Shown here piece by piece: positions 26,913-36,762 of a stretch of DNA of 64,000 nt; within the stretch, counting starts at the first letter, position 1, and the number at the start of each line of letters is the position of its first letter. The DNA is taken from the NCBI RefSeq assembly GCF_902805515.1, contig NZ_CADCTE010000172.1, forward strand, positions 1 through 64,000. Reading direction: 5' to 3'. The translations under genes were made by a program, and so were the position numbers. Source of the stretch: an uncultured Arthrobacter sp. (GTDB lineage Bacteria > Actinomycetota > Actinomycetes > Actinomycetales > Micrococcaceae). Below the pieces are notes generated by a model, which did no database searches, was not told where the DNA came from, and saw only the letters and a program-made list of their open reading frames with translations.

Positions 26913-27056
26913 TCAGTACGGCCAGTTGTTGATGCGATCGGTGCTGACGGTGGTCGATCCCGACTTCGTCGAGGTCGAACCCGCCGCGACGGCTGCAGAG
27001 CTTCCGGCGGTAACGAAAAGTACCGACAGCAGGAGCGCGGAGGTGAGCTTCTTCAT
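26913..27056 (-). CDS. 47-residue secreted peptide, unknown function
   Basis: A short ORF from an ATG at 27056 to a TGA at 26913, with TTGAGGAC 5-8 bases upstream as a good ribosome site. The N-terminus is a textbook signal peptide: MKK, a hydrophobic core LTSALLLSVLFVTAG, then SSAAVA with an A-x-A cleavage site near residue 24. The predicted mature part is about 23 residues, Ser/Thr/Gly-rich, ending DRINNWPY. I recognise no family. It is divergent from a TPR-like protein whose start is 140 bp away. That arrangement recalls exported signalling peptides paired with TPR receptors, but a structural surface peptide is also possible. Confidence 0.72.
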   Translation of the reverse strand: MKKLTSALLLSVLFVTAGSSAAVAAGSTSTKSGSTTVSTDRINNWPY

Positions 27057-27195
27057 GATTTGTCCTCAAGGTGAGATGGAAGCAAAAGACAAAAGCGGTC
27101 TTCTGCATTGCTATAGCAGATTCAGTCTACGAAATGTTGCTCCGCCACACCAGTCACAAACGTAACATTTTTTGACTAATTAATTCCGGGGGTCC

Positions 27196-28317
27196 ATGCT
27201 GGCCTTCACTGGACGCCCGACCGCGCGGCGCCCATGTAGTTGGATGGTGCCGCCAAGCGCCCTCCGCGAGCCGAAGGTGGTGAAGGCCCTGCAAGAAACG
27301 CCAGGGGAACAGGTCCTCCTCGAACTTCAGGCTCGAAGCGCGTGGAACCAACGCGATTACGAGCTTGCGCGGCGGATCGCCGAGCAGGCAGCCGGCCTTG
27401 CAGCTGACCTCAACGATGACAACGCCTGGTGGAATATGACGTTTCTTCAGGCTGAATGCCTGCGCAAACAAGGCTTGATGAACGAGTCCGTAATCGTCGG
27501 GCGCAGTCTTCAAAACCACCCCGTCACCGCTCAGTCGACGGCGCTCGCCGTAAGGGTGGCGACCCTCGTGTCCTTCGCACTCCAGGGTTGTGGAGCCTTG
27601 AGGGAAGCGGTCGCCGAAGCGCGGGGAGCCGCGGCACAGGCGTCGCTCGCCCCGGGGCAACAGGAATTGCACATCGAGGCGCAGAATGCGCTCATCGCGG
27701 CCCTTGCCGACAGCGACCAGCTAAGCGACGCCTGGACCGAATGCCTCGTCCTGGCCGATCTTCTCGAAGAAAACGCGAGCAAGCAGACCGCGGGCATGAG
27801 CTACTGGGCCATTGGCAACGTGGCATTCCTCCTTCAGCGCGTCGAAGACGGGACCAAGTATCACCGCCTGGCAGCTGAGAACCTGTCGCCGACCAACGAC
27901 CTTGACCTGTGGGCCCGCTTCAACCGGGCTTCCGCTGCGCTGCGCCTCGCTGCGGGCGTCGTCGAGCCCGAGACGCTCGAATGCATCGACCGCGCAGAGA
28001 TGGCCAGCTCAATTGTCGGGGGCAGCGAACGGGACCGGCTGGAACTTGCATTGACCCGTGCGCACTGGCTCGTGCTGACCGGACAGTTCGACGCAGCAAT
28101 CGAACGGCTGCGGGCGGTGACCTCCCAGGAGTCGCTGCTCGCTACCCACACCGCCGCCGAAGCACGCTTCCTGCTGGGCCAGGCATATAACGCCCGGCAT
28201 ATCGAACTCGAAGCCCTGCTGAACCTCGAAGCGAGCGAGCAGCTATTCGTCCAGTCAGGCGCCAACGACCGGGCCGCCGCCGCACGGCAGCTCATCCACC
28301 AGGTTCAGGGCGGTTGA
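27196..28317 (+). CDS. TPR-like helical repeat protein, putative peptide receptor
   Basis: A 373-residue all-helical protein without signal peptide or membrane span. Repeated helix pairs of TPR character run through most of it: QARSAWNQRDYELARRIAEQA, NDDNAWWNMTFLQAECLRKQG, then AEARFLLGQAYNARHIELEALLN near the end. There is no visible helix-turn-helix. The start at 27196 follows GGGGG closely; the ATG at 27244 is an alternative and may be better. The secreted 47-residue peptide is divergently encoded next to it. TPR proteins of the Rap/RRNPP group bind such peptides in Firmicutes; an analogous role here is a hypothesis. It could equally be a general scaffold. Confidence 0.72.
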   Translation: MLAFTGRPTARRPCSWMVPPSALREPKVVKALQETPGEQVLLELQARSAWNQRDYELARRIAEQAAGLAADLNDDNAWWNMTFLQAECLRKQGLMNESVIVGRSLQNHPVTAQSTALAVRVATLVSFALQGCGALREAVAEARGAAAQASLAPGQQELHIEAQNALIAALADSDQLSDAWTECLVLADLLEENASKQTAGMSYWAIGNVAFLLQRVEDGTKYHRLAAENLSPTNDLDLWARFNRASAALRLAAGVVEPETLECIDRAEMASSIVGGSERDRLELALTRAHWLVLTGQFDAAIERLRAVTSQESLLATHTAAEARFLLGQAYNARHIELEALLNLEASEQLFVQSGANDRAAAARQLIHQVQGG

Positions 28318-28699: not shown

Positions 28700-28729
28700 G
28701 AGATCACTGTCAGTGATCTCTGGTATAAC
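28700..28729 (+). promoter_or_regulatory. Palindromic operator with -10 box
   Basis: GAGATCACTG, one central base, then CAGTGATCTC form a perfect 21-base inverted repeat (28700-28720). TATAAC, a good -10 box, follows at 28724-28729. The palindrome covers the expected -35 position. A bound dimer would control the cysteine-rich ORF and the STAS/GGDEF-EAL genes downstream. Confidence 0.7.
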
Positions 28730-28762
28730 GGGATTTCCGTCCTTCAATGGAGAAGTGGTGAA

Positions 28763-28924
28763 ATGCAACGCTGCCCCAAGGGGTGCTGCTGTTGCCGTAT
28801 GAATGCTGGGGAGCATATGTCTAACTCAATCACCGGAACCTGCTCATTCGAGCCGGAACAAAGTCCCGCCCGCGAATGTCGATGGGGCACGGAACGACGG
28901 TCCTTGCCGCAGCTGGCCCGCTGA
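28763..28924 (+). CDS. Cysteine-rich short ORF, possible leader peptide
   Basis: A 53-codon ORF starting MQRCPKGCCCCRMNAGEHM; a GGAG lies about 11 bases upstream. Its start is about 34 bases after the -10 box at 28724. Four consecutive Cys codons near the start recall the polycysteine short ORFs that act as cysteine-sensitive attenuators in mycobacteria. It ends 28 bp before the STAS-like gene. The remainder of the peptide is not signal-like. It may also be a chance ORF; a competing frame from 28803 runs into the STAS gene. Confidence 0.4.
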   Translation: MQRCPKGCCCCRMNAGEHMSNSITGTCSFEPEQSPARECRWGTERRSLPQLAR

Positions 28925-28952: not shown

Positions 28953-29387
28953 ATGACCGACGAAATACTGCTCCACGATGACGCAGAACTGCTCGAGGCA
29001 GGCGCGGAGCGTGCCACAGGTGCCCACGGGCGTGGTGAACAAACCCTTTCGCGGGATGGGATCACATTGGTCACGCTCCCCGCCGGGGAGCATGTATCCA
29101 AGCGACTGGCCGAATCGAAGGCGGAGGAGGCCCGCGCGCTCGCGGCCGGCGTGCCCCGGCCCCTGCTGATCGATATTCGGGGCGTGAAATCCATCGACCG
29201 CGATGCGCGCGCCATCCTGGGCGCTGCGCAAATGTCGGCGGCGGTTGCCCTGCTGGGTGCCGGCCCGGTGGACCGCGTGCTGGGAAACTTCGTGATGGGA
29301 GGTCAGGAGCCACGATGCCCCGTGGCCTTCTTCGCATCGCGCAGCGAGGCGCTTGCATGGCTGGCGGGCTTCCTGCCGGTACCCTGA
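28953..29387 (+). CDS. STAS-like protein preceding the GGDEF/EAL gene
   Basis: A 144-residue protein from the ATG at 28953, with GGGGGAC just upstream. The middle holds an STAS/SpoIIAA-like alternation: ITLVTLPAGEHVSKRLAESKAEEARALAAG, then RPLLIDIRGVKSIDRDARAILGAAQMSAAVALLG. This is followed by a short end with FFASRSEALAWLAGFL. Such proteins occur next to GGDEF genes in Arthrobacter and may sense ligands or partner with the cyclase. The stop is five bases before the next start, so the two are co-transcribed. No clear phosphorylatable Ser motif is seen. Confidence 0.72.
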   Translation: MTDEILLHDDAELLEAGAERATGAHGRGEQTLSRDGITLVTLPAGEHVSKRLAESKAEEARALAAGVPRPLLIDIRGVKSIDRDARAILGAAQMSAAVALLGAGPVDRVLGNFVMGGQEPRCPVAFFASRSEALAWLAGFLPVP

Positions 29388-29392
29388 AAAAG

Positions 29393-30934
29393 ATGAACGC
29401 CGAAAACAAGGATCCGCGGTTGGGCCAGCTGGTCGACAGCATAGTGCGCCTTTCGCGCGGCGAATTGAGCAGCCGCATTGAGCCCTCGGAGGCAAGGGAT
29501 GAAGTCGATGCGGTAATCACCGGCTTCAACCTCCTCGCGGAGGAACTGGAACAGGTCTATGACCAGTTCGAGAAGCGGGTGGAAAGCCGGACGGCGATGC
29601 TTCGCCAGGCTCACCGGGATATGAAGAAGATGGCGATGTCCGACGCCCTCACCGGCCTCGCGAACCGGGTAGCCCTGATGGAAGCCCTTGAGACCGCGCT
29701 GGCCGAGGCCGCGGATGGAGCGCCCCCGCCGGCGCTGATCCTCCTTGACCTCGATTCCTTCAAGAACGTCAACGACCGCTTCGGGCATGACGCGGGCGAC
29801 CGCGTGCTCCAGGAGGTCGGCGTCCGGCTCAATGGTGTGGTGCGCACGAGCGATGTCGTCGCACGGCTCGGCGGCGACGAGTTCGCCATCCTCCTTCCAG
29901 CGGCCACCATGGAGATCTGCATGCGCGTCGCACGCCGCGCCCTCGAAGTCCTTGGCGAGATCATCGAACTGGAGGACCTCCAGGTCCATTCGCGGGCGAG
30001 CATCGGCGTACGGCTCGGTGATCCCCAGCAGAGCGCGGATGACCTGCTGCTCGACGCAGACACCGCCATGTACGCAGCCAAGCGCGAAGGCCGCAACATC
30101 ATCAAGGTGTTCGAACCGGTGATGCAGTACTCGCGGCAGCTCCGCAGCCAGATGGCGGCGGAACTCCGATCCGCCATCCGCCATGACGAACTGGTTCTTC
30201 ACTTCCAGCCGCTGGTTGAACTTGCGACGAGCCGCATCATCGGGCTTGAGGTGCTAGTGCGCTGGCAGCACCCGGTGCGCGGGCTCATCCCGCCGGACGT
30301 CTTCATCCCCCTCGCCGAGGAAATCGGAGTCATCCACGACCTCGACCGGTGGGTGATGTCTACGTCCCTACGCCACCTCGCCGAGTGGCGCCGTGACCTC
30401 CAGCTCGACGACGATTTCCAGTTGCAGGTGAACCTCTCCGCTGTTGAGCTGAAGCAGCTCGACCTGGTCGACTATGTGCGTGGCCTGCTGCGGGAAACGG
30501 GGGTCCCTGCCTCCTGCCTGGTCATCGAGATCACCGAATCGGCGATCGTGACGCGGGGCGAAGTGGAGATGTACTCGCTTCTCAGCCTGCAGCAGCTCGG
30601 AGTGGGAATCGAGATCGACGACTTCGGGACCGGTTATTCCTCAATCAGCTACCTGCGTGAGCTGCCCGTGAGCATGGTAAAGGTGGACCGCTCGCTTCTT
30701 GTCGATCTTGACACCAAACCCGGACAGTTCGGGTTTGTCTCCGCAGTGCTTCAGTTGATCCGGGCAGCCGGACTTGAGGCAGTCTGCGAGGGCATCGAGA
30801 CAAAGGAACAGGCCGACCAGCTGCGGGCCATGGGCTGCGCCAGCGGCCAGGGCTACTACTTCAGCAGACCGCTGCCCATCGACGAGATCAAGGCCCTGCT
30901 CGCCACCCACAGGTTTCTCAGCCTGCCGGCCTAG
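29393..30934 (+). CDS. GGDEF-EAL protein for c-di-GMP turnover
   Basis: A 513-residue soluble protein. Residues about 8-65 look like a HAMP-type helical segment followed by a coiled coil. The GGDEF domain (about 75-240) has DALTGLANR, LLDLDSFKNVND and an intact GGDEF at 160-164. The EAL domain (about 255-500) reads EVL at residues 286-288 instead of EAL, but keeps NLSAVEL, EITES, IDDFGTGYSS, KVDRSLL and EGIETKEQ. Both cyclase and phosphodiesterase activities are plausible. No membrane span is visible, so input may come from the STAS-like neighbour or another protein. Confidence 0.93.
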   Translation: MNAENKDPRLGQLVDSIVRLSRGELSSRIEPSEARDEVDAVITGFNLLAEELEQVYDQFEKRVESRTAMLRQAHRDMKKMAMSDALTGLANRVALMEALETALAEAADGAPPPALILLDLDSFKNVNDRFGHDAGDRVLQEVGVRLNGVVRTSDVVARLGGDEFAILLPAATMEICMRVARRALEVLGEIIELEDLQVHSRASIGVRLGDPQQSADDLLLDADTAMYAAKREGRNIIKVFEPVMQYSRQLRSQMAAELRSAIRHDELVLHFQPLVELATSRIIGLEVLVRWQHPVRGLIPPDVFIPLAEEIGVIHDLDRWVMSTSLRHLAEWRRDLQLDDDFQLQVNLSAVELKQLDLVDYVRGLLRETGVPASCLVIEITESAIVTRGEVEMYSLLSLQQLGVGIEIDDFGTGYSSISYLRELPVSMVKVDRSLLVDLDTKPGQFGFVSAVLQLIRAAGLEAVCEGIETKEQADQLRAMGCASGQGYYFSRPLPIDEIKALLATHRFLSLPA

Positions 30935-33458: not shown

Positions 33459-34682
33459 CTACAAGCCAGCGTTCCGCTTCCGCTCAACGGCTCGGCCGGC
33501 CACGAGGCCCGCAGCGGTCAGGCTCGCCACGACAAGCCCTCCCAGCCACACTTGACCCGGGTCATCCGATGCCGCAACCGCAGCCGACTGCACGTTGAGG
33601 CCCTGGTTGGTGCCAACCGTCCCCGTTGAAGCCGGCACGACCACAGTCCGCACCGTGACGGTGCCCGAAGTCTTCACTGGGTCCTTCGTGACAGTGTTCC
33701 CTGGCATGACTGGGGTATGAGGGGCCTGCGGTGTTTCAGGGGATTCGGGTGCGGAGGGCGTCTCCGGGATTCCGGGGAGTTGCGGGTTCCCCGGGCCGGG
33801 GTTCTCCTCGTTCGGGTTCTCCTCGTCGGGGTTCTCCTCGTCGGGGTTCTCCTCGTCGGGGTTCTCCTCGTCGGGGTTCTCCTCGTCGGGGTTCTCCTCG
33901 TCGGGGTTCTCCTCGTCCGGGTTCTCCCCGCAGTCGTTCTTGCCCTCGCCGGTGTTGTTGTCTCCGCCGTTGTTGCCCTCGCCGGTGTTGTTGTCTCCGC
34001 CGTTGTTGTCACCGCAGTCGTCACCGTTGCCGCCGCCGTTATTGTCGCCGGGGCCGTTGCCGCCGCCGTTGCCGGGGTTGTTGTCACCACCGCCGCCGTT
34101 GCCGTTGCCGGGGTTGCCCTCGCCGTTGCCGTTGCCGGGGTTGCCCTCGCCGCCGCCGTTGCCGGGGTTGCCCTCGCCGTTCCCGTTGCCCGGGTTCTCA
34201 CCGCCGCCGCCGCCGTTGCCGCCACTCGGGTTCCCGGCGTTTGGCTTGCCGCCGGTTGCATTGCCTACCTTGTCCGGAGAGGCAGGAACGACCGGCACCG
34301 CCGGAGCAGCTTCAGCCGGGGCTGCCGGAACGGCAGGAACAACGGCATCGACTGGAGTAGCCGGAACCGCTGGGATTACAGGAGTGATCGGTGCCACCGG
34401 AGTGGCGGGCTCTGCCGGGACCACCGGAGCCGCCGGCATCGCTGGCACCGCCGGAGTGACCGGTGTTGTCGGCTGGGCAGGCGTTGCCGGCTGGGCCGGA
34501 GCTCCCCCCTGGCCGCCACCGCCACAGTTAGCCCCATTGCCGGCCGTGGCCTGTGCGCCGATGCCGGTCACGCCTGCCGAATGGCACGCATTATTCTGCG
34601 TCGGCGGAGCAGCGTAGGCGGGAGCGGTGGTGGCAGCGAAGGCGAAGCCTACGAGCCCGACAGTTGTAAGGATTGATTTCAT
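33459..34682 (-). CDS. Repeat-rich exported surface protein
   Basis: A 407-residue protein from the ATG at 34682, with GGAGAGC upstream. Residues 1-25 are a signal peptide ending APAYA. A short region with two Cys (NACHSAGVTGIG..GANC) follows, then a long Pro/Ala/Val region (about 45-135), a Gly/Asn-rich region with PGNGNGEGN units (about 145-240), and eight ENP(D/N)E pentapeptides. A Pro/Thr stalk leads to a C-terminal membrane span (VWLGGLVVASLTAAGLVAG) and a basic tail RAVERKRN. There is no LPXTG, so anchoring is probably by the span. It resembles wall-spanning stalk proteins; no enzymatic domain is seen. Confidence 0.85.
   Translation of the reverse strand: MKSILTTVGLVGFAFAATTAPAYAAPPTQNNACHSAGVTGIGAQATAGNGANCGGGGQGGAPAQPATPAQPTTPVTPAVPAMPAAPVVPAEPATPVAPITPVIPAVPATPVDAVVPAVPAAPAEAAPAVPVVPASPDKVGNATGGKPNAGNPSGGNGGGGGENPGNGNGEGNPGNGGGEGNPGNGNGEGNPGNGNGGGGDNNPGNGGGNGPGDNNGGGNGDDCGDNNGGDNNTGEGNNGGDNNTGEGKNDCGENPDEENPDEENPDEENPDEENPDEENPDEENPDEENPNEENPGPGNPQLPGIPETPSAPESPETPQAPHTPVMPGNTVTKDPVKTSGTVTVRTVVVPASTGTVGTNQGLNVQSAAVAASDDPGQVWLGGLVVASLTAAGLVAGRAVERKRNAGL
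33801..33920. repeat. Eight 15-bp tandem repeats coding ENPDE
   Basis: Eight consecutive 15-base units of GTTCTCCTCGTCGGG on the plus strand, the first and last with one or two changes. On the minus strand they code Glu-Asn-Pro-(Asp/Asn)-Glu. Near-identical units suggest recent expansion and length variation by slippage. Confidence 0.95.
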
Positions 34683-35073
34683 GACAGCTCTCCAACCAGA
34701 TGGGGGCTTAACTGACCACTCCTGGGGGGCTGAAATGCGGAGACGCAGGGCGTTGCACAGGACCGCTCGAATGCCGTGTGAGACCGACTCAAAATCTTGA
34801 CGTTTCCCCAGCAGAATCATCAGTTTTTGATTACTTACTCAGGCTAGAAATGGCCCGGGGGATAGTCGCGAGTGGTCAATACTCGACTGGTTTGGAGGAC
34901 TCCGAGTAATTACTCGAATTGCTACGCTTACCTTGCTGGAAAGTACGTGGCGGTTGAAAAGGGCGTACCTTGAACTCCAATTGGGTATCGACCCATCTAC
35001 CCGGCGCGCTTTGGCCTGACACTGGACAGGGCTTCGGATAGTGTGAGCGCAAGCGACATGGGGAAGGGACGCC
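34683..35073. other. AT-rich intergenic region with TACTCG palindrome
   Basis: No convincing gene in 391 bp between the divergent surface protein and sensor kinase. A perfect 14-bp palindrome CGAGTAATTACTCG lies at 34903-34916. Related motifs are CAATACTCGA (34878-34887) and TTACTTACTC (34831-34840). This is a plausible operator region for one or both genes. Confidence 0.55.
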
Positions 35074-36762
35074 GTGAGCAAGCAAGACGTTAGCTGGGCC
35101 GGATTCGGCGGCACAGCGGTCGTCGCATCGCCAAGCGATGAGGACGGCCAAGATCTCTGCGCCATTTTGCAGCAGGCCGGCTACGCCGCGGTCCCGGTGA
35201 GTTCAGGTTCGGCCCTCCTGGGGACCCTCCGTCAAAGCACGCCCGACATTGTTTTCCTCGACCTTCAATTGGCCGATGAAAGCAGCCGCGCACTCCTAGG
35301 CGTCCTCGAATCCGATTCCCGCTTCGCCGGACTGCCGATCATCCTCCTCCTGCCTGACAGTGCGCCGCTGGAGCCCGGAGGATTGCTCGAGAATCCGATC
35401 ACCGATTTCGTTTTTCGGCCATATCAGGAGCGCGAGATCATTCAGCGCGCGGCGTCCGCCATCGCCCGACGCCGCCAGCACCGGGTGCAGCGCGAGTCTG
35501 CCTCGCTGCTGCGCGAACGGATGCGCGAAATCTCCGCAGGCATCCGCGCCACCAACAGCCTCGAAACCATGGTCGGAAACTTCCTCGCCGGGCTTGGCCG
35601 TGCCCTGGGCTCCGACTCGGTCTTCCTCCAGATCTTCCCCGACGACCGCGTGGCGGACCTGAGTTCACACTGGTCGAGCGCCGACGCCGACCCGATGGAA
35701 GTTCCTTCCCTGGCCCACTCCGGAAGGGCCAAGGCGCTGGCGCTCCGGCTGTGGGAGAGCTCCACCGGTGAACGTTTCCCTCCTGCGGAGGAATCTGCAT
35801 CGGCGGGCACGTCGGTCTTCGAGGATCTCGAGGATCTCTCCGGCATCACGAGCGGCGTCGTCGTCGCCCTTGGGGAGGGCACCACGCCGTTCGGGCTTGT
35901 CTGGCTGATCAATAACCACCGGCCGCTTGAGTGGACCCCGGTGGAGAATTCGCTGACCCAGCACGTGCTCGGCAACTTCGCCCACGGCCTGATCCAGGGT
36001 CAACTGATCGCCCGGCAGCAGCAGGCCGTCGAGAAACTGCGGCGCCTCAACAAGGCCAAGAGCGACTTCGTGGGAACGGTCAACCACGAACTGCGCACAC
36101 CGCTCGCCTCGATGGCCGGCTACCTCGAGATGATCCTCGACGGCTCGGGCGGTCCACTGCCCGAAGGAGCCCGGCGCATGCTCGAGACAGTCGAGCGCAA
36201 CACGACCCGGCTCCGCGACCTGATCGAGAACATCACGGCCCTCTCCCCCACGCTCGACGAGCCGCACGGCCACCTCTCCGTGGACCTCGGCCATGTCGTT
36301 GCCGCAGCCGCCGGGGACCTTTCCGCCGCTGCTGCGGCGAAAAACGTGGCCCTTCGCTGCCCGCCCAGTGAAGAGAGCATCCTCATCGCCGGCCACTACG
36401 ATCAGCTCAAGGAAGCAGTCGCACTTGTCATCTCCAATGCCGTGAAGTTCACCGGCCCGGGCGGCGTGGTCGAGGTCCACACAGTCTGCCGTTCCGCCGC
36501 CGGTCCGGCCGAAGTGGTCGTGCGCGACACCGGTATCGGGATCCCCGAAGCCGACATCCCCCGCCTCTTCGAAAGTTTTTTCCGCGCCTCGAACGCCACC
36601 GACGGCGCCGTTCCCGGCGCCGGGGTTGGACTGGCGATAGCGCAACGGACGGTAAGTGCCCACAACGGTGCAATCACCGTCGACTCCGCTGTCGGCGAAG
36701 GGACCACAGTGCGCATCGAAATGCCGCTGAAGGCTGCATCGCCGGTGGCCTCCCGCAGCTAG
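35074..36762 (+). CDS. Soluble hybrid sensor kinase: REC-GAF-HisKA-HATPase
   Basis: A 562-residue cytosolic protein from a GTG with AAGGGAC upstream. Residues about 12-130 are receiver-like with Asp63 (IVFLDLQLAD); the usual KPF reads RPY, so it may be altered. Residues about 155-310 are GAF-like. The HisKA helix has FVGTVNHELRTPLASM (His338), and the ATPase has VISNAVKFTG, RDTGIGIPE and GAGVGLAIA. No response regulator is adjacent, so the partner is unknown. It is divergent from the surface protein, and the palindrome between them may link their control. Confidence 0.9.
   Translation: MSKQDVSWAGFGGTAVVASPSDEDGQDLCAILQQAGYAAVPVSSGSALLGTLRQSTPDIVFLDLQLADESSRALLGVLESDSRFAGLPIILLLPDSAPLEPGGLLENPITDFVFRPYQEREIIQRAASAIARRRQHRVQRESASLLRERMREISAGIRATNSLETMVGNFLAGLGRALGSDSVFLQIFPDDRVADLSSHWSSADADPMEVPSLAHSGRAKALALRLWESSTGERFPPAEESASAGTSVFEDLEDLSGITSGVVVALGEGTTPFGLVWLINNHRPLEWTPVENSLTQHVLGNFAHGLIQGQLIARQQQAVEKLRRLNKAKSDFVGTVNHELRTPLASMAGYLEMILDGSGGPLPEGARRMLETVERNTTRLRDLIENITALSPTLDEPHGHLSVDLGHVVAAAAGDLSAAAAAKNVALRCPPSEESILIAGHYDQLKEAVALVISNAVKFTGPGGVVEVHTVCRSAAGPAEVVVRDTGIGIPEADIPRLFESFFRASNATDGAVPGAGVGLAIAQRTVSAHNGAITVDSAVGEGTTVRIEMPLKAASPVASRS

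Follow-up and report, generated by a model that had tools for sequence, protein, structure and literature searches.

Does a short gene for a secreted peptide, placed back to back with a gene for a TPR protein, encode a signal and its receptor, and does that receptor act on the c-di-GMP genes that lie beside it? The question arises from the window, a stretch of 64,000 nucleotides from an uncultured Arthrobacter sp. (contig NZ_CADCTE010000172.1), in which an earlier note, made from the letters alone, had read the two divergent genes as a possible peptide-receptor signalling pair.

The peptide gene and its probable divergent receptor

The putative pro-pheromone gene (26913..27056, minus strand), identified from the list of open reading frames (ORFs) and from its conservation beside the receptor, encodes 47 residues, with a leader, a 22-residue mature part and the C-terminal core INNWPY; the minus-strand reading of its 47 codons is MKKLTSALLLSVLFVTAGSSAAVAAGSTSTKSGSTTVSTDRINNWPY. 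The clean ribosome site and signal peptide that the earlier note had assigned to this short gene were both recovered: GAGGA (27063..27067, minus strand) stands 6 bases upstream of the peptide ATG, and the leader, read by rule, has a charged N-terminus, a hydrophobic core and an A-x-A stretch, after which the predicted Sec-type signal peptide (residues 1–25; 26982..27056, minus strand) would be cut. The predicted active hexapeptide INNWPY occupies residues 42–47 (26916..26933, minus strand), with D-R before it, and was placed by alignment with the repeat unit of multi-copy precursors.

Peptide and receptor are separated by a divergent gap of 223 bases when the receptor is taken to start at 27280. 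Within the gap, a conserved box, CACACCAGTCAC-n3-CGTAACAT (27146..27168, plus strand), was judged by reading to be the most conserved block among 27 own-genus intergenic sequences, and occurs at a single site in its own genome with up to 3 mismatches allowed. This 23-base box, a candidate promoter or operator element, may be the promoter or operator of the peptide gene; a sigma-70 promoter scan of the gap gave no match, though actinobacterial promoters are poorly covered, and no Rfam match was found between 26000 and 31000 up to an E value of 1.

The receptor itself (27280..28317, plus strand) is a TPR protein of about 345 residues without an export signal or a DNA-binding domain. It had been described as a divergent helical-repeat ORF of 373 residues without an export signal (27196–28317), of which the reading frame and the TPR fold stand but the start probably does not, because the receptors of relatives begin, mostly with an ATG and a ribosome site, at a position aligned to the GTG at window position 27280 rather than to 27196. 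The closest named relatives found for the window, by receptor identity, are Arthrobacter sp. MSA 4-2 (99%) and A. crusticola (87%). No Pfam match (E ≤ 1) was found for the divergent ORF, NCBIfam gave no name for the receptor, and no match in PHROGs was found for either the window receptor or the window peptide, while the PHROGs matches of the XRE-form receptor were to HTH regulators only. The Pfam models TPR_12 and TPR_14 were matched above cut-off by one XRE-bearing relative; one relative with TPR repeats only matched TPR models below cut-off.

AlphaFold2 modelled the window receptor as a TPR superhelix (mean pLDDT, 93.8). The concave face of such superhelices is lined by A helices, and among 49 receptors of both kinds the conserved (≥95%) polar or aromatic residues fell at 14 of 137 A-helix positions compared with 5 of 120 B-helix positions, 10 of the 14 being located in repeats 5–7 (W176, N180, W211, N215, S218, R222, D252, E255, R260 and W263). 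The best structural neighbours of the model were LGN/Pins (Z 26–28), LGN being a eukaryotic peptide-binding TPR protein, and lower matches (Z 19–20) included Rap with the CSF peptide (4gyo), RapI, RapH, RapF, NprR and the Raps of pLS20 and phi3T. A model of the XRE form gave the same picture for its TPR part, with the HTH part at pLDDT <50. A TPR fold alone shows no function, and a sequence search of the TPR part against solved RRNPPA receptors returned no match (only IFT88, at E 0.29). The XRE domain of the sister-clade receptors resembles the HTHs of PlcR and ComR, among other XRE proteins, and an XRE sister-clade receptor matched Pfam HTH_31/HTH_3. No HTH was found in the window receptor, which by analogy would correspond to a Rap-like state.

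Conservation of the pair and of its W-P core

Within the genus, the receptor was present in all 38 genomes, its own included. Synteny, read from stretches of up to 20 kb from the 37 other genomes (38 loci), followed a usual order of gltX, FAH, peptide<>receptor, GGDEF-EAL, ilvE and leuB, and some loci carry the peptide<>receptor unit twice, in tandem. The peptide was detected in 36 of the 38 genomes (35 of the 37 others plus the window), and in both misses (G021 and G030) the receptor was found by reading to lie at a contig end. A sample of the family contained receptor homologues in 143 of 295 genomes and 17 of 32 genera (E ≤ 1e-20). Conservation of the pair in relatives, on which the earlier note had made its reading depend, holds across the genus and, to an extent that varies between the 17 genera with homologues, across much of the Micrococcaceae, with an altered form outside the order. 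One of the records containing the Arthrobacter locus is labelled Vibrio cholerae strain 35D (L075) and is therefore misidentified or contaminated.

The genus-, family- and order-level searches supplied 169 non-identical receptors for a census that left out duplicates and receptors with matches starting past profile position 60. An HTH profile divided them into 92 receptors with an N-terminal XRE domain and 77 without (TPR-only), two of the latter being set aside with <420 bases upstream. A divergent leader peptide with a W-P core, the leader being called by rule, accompanied 72 of 75 TPR-only receptors; the rule gave 73, but the call at L265 was spurious. The other exceptions were the first copy of L045, with no peptide, and L300, with a divergent secreted-looking peptide lacking W-P. 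For the XRE receptors, a W-P peptide was present at 57 of 92 and none was found nearby at 35. At L065 (second copy) and L193 the rule chose the wrong ORF though a real peptide is present; both were counted as peptide-bearing, and the wrong ORFs enter the unit counts and the tree labels. In a control set of 508 ORFs (≥300 codons, ends away from receptors), a W-P leader was found at six, five of which were the receptors' own peptides reached through overlapping frames and one of which was unrelated. The pairing of peptide and receptor is far beyond chance.

The core occurs in 1 to 8 units per precursor with the consensus [VI]G[NDW]WP[DNHY]. TPR-only precursors mostly carried one unit (n = 55), with two units in 11, three in four and four in two, and XRE-type precursors (n = 57) carried two to eight units in 53 cases and one in four; because L065 and L193 were entered as wrongly picked one-unit ORFs, the count is too low for one precursor of each kind. 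In several precursors the units directly abut without a linker (IGNWPHIGNWPH; KIGDWPNKIGDWPNIGDWPN), which suggests a hexamer as the repeated unit and, as far as sequence can tell, six residues as the putative active unit, though in many XRE-type precursors the repeat extends to VGNWPDPM. The core statistics were based on 284 units from 127 distinct precursors. The presence of W and P in all 284 is uninformative because precursors were chosen for W-P, and the weight rests on the flanks, where G occupied position -2 in 252 units, V/I position -3 in 255, N/D/W position -1 in 250 and D/N/H position +1 in 247. In the L282 precursor, four VGWWPN units lie within two longer duplicated blocks, which suggests a recent duplication of unit pairs.

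Comparing units within each gene gave 556 synonymous and 18 nonsynonymous differences (pS 0.48, pN 0.004; pairwise counts that are not independent), and this nearly pure synonymous divergence, with the multi-copy precursors, favours a reading of the W-P core as a putative signal peptide that is processed and active. Between species the picture is different. Across 16 aligned 46-aa precursors of different species, the leader was the most constrained part (pN/pS 0.27), and the core was no more constrained than the linker because both had a pN/pS of about 0.5; the retention of W and P while surrounding positions change is read here as pherotype drift. Where two tandem receptors had readable upstream DNA, five of six genus genomes had two peptides with different cores (for example IDDWPH and KVGNWPD), and different cores were found in 15 of 15 genomes where a TPR-only and an XRE receptor, both peptide-bearing, could be paired by hand. 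For covariation between peptide and receptor, which the earlier note had put forward as a check, branch-wise co-change was scored over 126 pairs, and 3 of 340 columns reached p < 0.01 against 3.4 expected. This is the chance level and decides nothing in either direction; the mean z was 0.23 for A-helix and -0.07 for B-helix columns. The test left out L210, L212 and L209 (long branches), and the cores of the second copy of L065 and of L193 were set by hand.

A FastTree phylogeny of the receptors, with long branches flagged, shows a single change of HTH state, with the TPR-only receptors forming one side of one branch. Peptide presence needs at least 9 changes on it, and the -1/+1 core residues 43. 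The HTH-less branch was probably derived by a single loss, because most homologues outside the order include the HTH, aligning from it onward. Since 35 of the 92 XRE receptors lack a peptide and its presence changed so often, the receptor fold does not need an adjacent peptide.

c-di-GMP genes and a proposed mechanism

Downstream of the receptor, the c-di-GMP genes that had been named as a possible output are present on the plus strand. A DUF7793 protein (28953..29387; Pfam), weakly STAS/SpoIIAA-like, adjoins the receptor in other genera too (L111 and L117) and is followed by a HAMP-GGDEF-EAL protein (29393..30934; Pfam) with an intact GGDEF motif, the candidate output. No membrane segment of the latter was evident by eye, and its input should be cytoplasmic because a HAMP domain is present without one; a TPR protein would fit as its partner, by inference.

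A HAMP-GGDEF-EAL homologue lies within 6 kb of the receptor at 69 of 75 TPR-only loci, and linkage rises to 73 of 75 when the window, one homologue further off (inferred) and two short loci, once extended, are added. The two loci without it are L067, which ends at a contig edge, and L265, which has an interrupted gene and none in 18.7 kb (L376). Linkage persists in genera in whose loci none of gltX, FAH and ilvE was detected, and the gene may stand on either side of the pair (L187, L217 and L219), so the suggested connection between c-di-GMP genes and pair holds across genera with different other neighbours, as synteny alone. No GGDEF-EAL homologue was found beside any of the 92 XRE receptors, a figure weakened because these loci were read with shorter flanks (median on the shorter side, 2.7 kb compared to 4.0 kb for TPR-only loci); a separate count over 26 named XRE loci, for which about 6 kb was read to either side as far as the contig reached, likewise gave none.

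A family-2 glycosyltransferase gene stands between the receptor and the GGDEF-EAL gene at 12 of 38 genus loci, where it is intact, and also in two genomes from another genus; its resemblance to cellulose and poly-GlcNAc synthases is weak and scores far under cut-off. The window retains a remnant (28778..28909, plus strand) of the 5' end of a deleted gene of this kind (exopolysaccharide synthase-like), detected by tblastn against a relative's intact gene (64% over 44 aa). The remnant is all that is left in a deletion scar at 28707–28919, and the nearest relative (L032) has the same kind of remnant.

Further downstream, a response-regulator/histidine-kinase hybrid (35074..36762, plus strand) is a possible associate, homologues of which adjoin the peptide gene in some other genera and stand no more than 6 kb from the receptor at 12 of 75 TPR-only loci; a histidine kinase next to the peptide may belong to the circuit. 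Kinase genes resembling it were seen beside the peptide gene at L097 (3840–5480), L111 (3977–5620), L117 (3806–5515) and L182 (5471–7201), of which only that of L097 was typed with Pfam. The window also encodes, at 33459–34820 (minus strand), a likely surface protein, highly repetitive and rich in Pro, Gly and Asn, with DEENP repeats and, at its C-terminus, a hydrophobic tail and then basic residues.

Taken as a whole, the pair very probably consists of a peptide pheromone and a cytoplasmic receptor that work like the RRNPPA systems of Bacillota, and the TPR-only branch may act on c-di-GMP. The pro-peptide would be exported by Sec and cut by signal peptidase; extracellular proteolysis would then release a short peptide (about INNWPY here, and [VI]GxWPx or VGNWPDPM in relatives, often from several tandem units), an oligopeptide ABC transporter would take it back up, and it would bind the concave groove of the divergently encoded cytoplasmic TPR receptor. 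These four steps, export, processing, uptake and receptor binding, are held jointly with high confidence. In the XRE-bearing branch the peptide-bound receptor would control transcription, and in the HTH-less branch it would act by a Rap-like protein contact with a partner in the cytoplasm, for which the HAMP-GGDEF-EAL protein encoded nearby is the likeliest candidate, with an effect on the c-di-GMP level and, in relatives that keep it, on the glycosyltransferase for a surface polysaccharide. Capacity for import is present, with six PF00496 oligopeptide-binding proteins in its own genome. The signalling-pair reading of the earlier note draws support from the conservation of the pair, the repeats and the synonymous divergence; what can be read from the DNA extends to the pairing, the export-type leader, the repeated and selected core, the single HTH transition and the GGDEF-EAL linkage, and processing, re-import, binding, regulation, output and the direction of effect are inferred. 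For the TPR-only branch, c-di-GMP as the output is an even call.

The case against the pheromone reading is made up of the lack of binding, transcript, peptide or phenotype data, the XRE receptors without a peptide, a core that is no more constrained than the linker between species, the chance-level covariation, the missing sequence link to RRNPPA receptors with LGN as the best structural match, a GGDEF-EAL link known from synteny only and leaders called by rule. Several other explanations have to be set beside it. That the peptide is a chance ORF next to a TPR gene was refuted by the census (72/75 TPR-only receptors vs 6/508 control ORFs); short ORFs do abound in this GC-rich DNA, but conservation, selection and the control counts leave the idea with a negligible probability. 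The peptide could also be an antimicrobial or modified peptide (RiPP/bacteriocin), with the TPR protein regulating it or conferring immunity. Antimicrobial activity does occur among short secreted peptides that contain Trp, and there was a weak NCBIfam match to a bacteriocin-like model (15.7 of 40 bits, far below cut-off), but identical six-residue tandem units are unusual for bacteriocins and no modification or ABC-exporter gene was found among the conserved genus neighbours (gltX, FAH, GGDEF-EAL, ilvE and leuB) or, in other genera, at nine loci checked by the start of their sequences, only some of them Pfam-typed; this explanation is considered very unlikely. Improbable, though less so, is that the TPR protein senses only its own cell's peptide (as a chaperone, for export quality or for timing) or the propeptide before export, without any cell-cell signalling. 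Pairing, TPR groove and selection would fit that too and re-import is only inferred, but selection acts on repeated units after the leader, import proteins are present in the genome and the Bacillota precedents re-import their peptides (PMC9765709, as far as its text was available).

A more serious alternative accepts the pair but not its output: the GGDEF-EAL gene would reflect old synteny, and the receptor would act on another partner, such as the orphan XRE-TPR paralogue or a nearby kinase. There is no evidence of interaction, the whole genus context from gltX to leuB is conserved rather than the GGDEF-EAL gene alone, a peptide-less orphan XRE-TPR paralogue exists in its own genome and kinases are near in 12 of 75 cases. 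The persistence of the GGDEF-EAL gene with TPR-only receptors in the absence of gltX, FAH and ilvE, its position on either side of the pair and the fact that none was seen beside the 92 XRE receptors speak against this alternative, which stays a substantial possibility, rated clearly short of even.

Known peptide systems and relatives beyond the family

Returning to the pheromone-receptor reading, the likeness to RRNPPA systems (Rap-Phr, NprR-NprX, PlcR-PapR, AimR-AimP and Rgg/ComR) comprises a short Sec-type propeptide gene adjacent to a TPR receptor, a cytoplasmic receptor of 250–500 aa with or without an N-terminal XRE-type HTH (about 345 aa in the window), a short core in the C-terminal part of the precursor and oligopeptide import proteins in the genome. 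The differences are that those systems belong to the Bacillota and this one to the Actinomycetota, that the Arthrobacter-type TPR part has no sequence link to RRNPPA structures and only the HTH resembles PlcR and ComR, and that gene order here is divergent, with a common W-P core and with TPR-only receptors linked to GGDEF-EAL genes. Further, no match was found here to the window receptor in a plasmid collection or to an XRE receptor (L120) in a phage collection. The likeness to Rap phosphatases is one of fold only, and no Spo0F-type partner was identified.

In outline, and leaving aside the HMM and SignalP steps, the window pair fits the receptor length, adjacency and secretion criteria of RRNPP_detector, as given in the available part of its description (PMC10075063), and the survey with that tool was, by the same part, restricted to complete genomes of Firmicutes and to viruses, so that Actinomycetota were not scanned. 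Several copies of the active peptide per precursor are likewise reported for the multi-pheromone Phr precursors of Rap-Phr(3T) and Rap-Phr(105); in the accessible text (PMC11343458) the Phr3T family has pseudo-repeats with no identical internal copy, and the Phr105 family has identical repeats in 6 cases and pseudo-repeats in 33, whereas the precursors here have up to 8 units that are mostly identical. Actinobacterial signals are typically enzyme-made small molecules, with cytoplasmic-receptor peptide signalling a trait of Bacillota, according to the available portion of PMC10075063. An older review (PMC4748050), likewise available in part, mentions cyclic or modified peptides as actinobacterial signals, gives Arthrobacter quorum sensing only as AAA, LuxR-like and REC homologues, and includes 'TPR' among the bioinformatic components for Streptomyces, Rhodococcus, Saccharopolyspora and Thermobifida. 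Searches for Actinobacteria terms in the accessible text of PMC9765709, PMC11343458 and PMC12700828 found none. Among the papers listed in PMC searches, judged by title and start of abstract and with bioRxiv and most subscription papers out of reach, none reported an RRNPP-type system for Arthrobacter, the Micrococcaceae or the Actinomycetota, and none used the core motifs as signal peptides; nor was a peptide-to-c-di-GMP circuit seen described.

A conserved multi-copy peptide system in the Micrococcaceae, which has divergent relatives in other parts of the class, would give a major soil phylum a linear peptide code; the evidence points to a messaging system, undescribed so far, that may be wired to a biofilm-type switch. 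Because the code is short and predicted, synthetic peptides can test it directly, and the GGDEF-EAL linkage offers a measurable output. In its widest form, the reading would be that Actinomycetes own a large family of XRE-TPR receptors and secreted peptide pheromones over several orders, with xWPx cores in the Micrococcaceae and some others and CC-ending C-termini elsewhere, and that one Micrococcaceae branch, in which the HTH was lost once, provides a direct peptide input to c-di-GMP and polysaccharide synthesis; this combined reading is tentative, falling only just under an even chance.

A class-wide sample contained matches to a broader profile in 67 of 394 genomes (E ≤ 1e-15, own relatives included). 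Outside the order, 44 loci were collected, one of which (L333) had no upstream DNA. Of the remaining 43 receptors, 11 had a divergent leader ORF with W-P, 19 one ending in CC and 25 either, compared to 0 of 105 (W-P) and 3 of 105 (CC-ending) in controls cleaned of frames overlapping receptor starts. Repeated cores in this set were DISWP (three times), DIGWP (twice) and DIEWP (twice). Extension beyond the Micrococcaceae rests on less testing than the system inside that family and is offered as a lead. In another Micrococcales family, three precursors (L210, L340 and L342) each hold two to three copies of VGGSWPT, and several further receptors are without such a peptide. Secreted short ORFs ending in Cys-Cys were seen divergent from the outside-order XRE-TPR genes of L336, L338 and L353–L372.

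The orphan XRE-TPR paralogue of the window's own genome (L002, 1267–2490, contig C107) has 38% identity and no W-P peptide gene nearby. Distant homologues like it were present in 24 of 38 genus genomes, the XRE domain having been checked in three, and the paralogue might also read the peptide of the pair.
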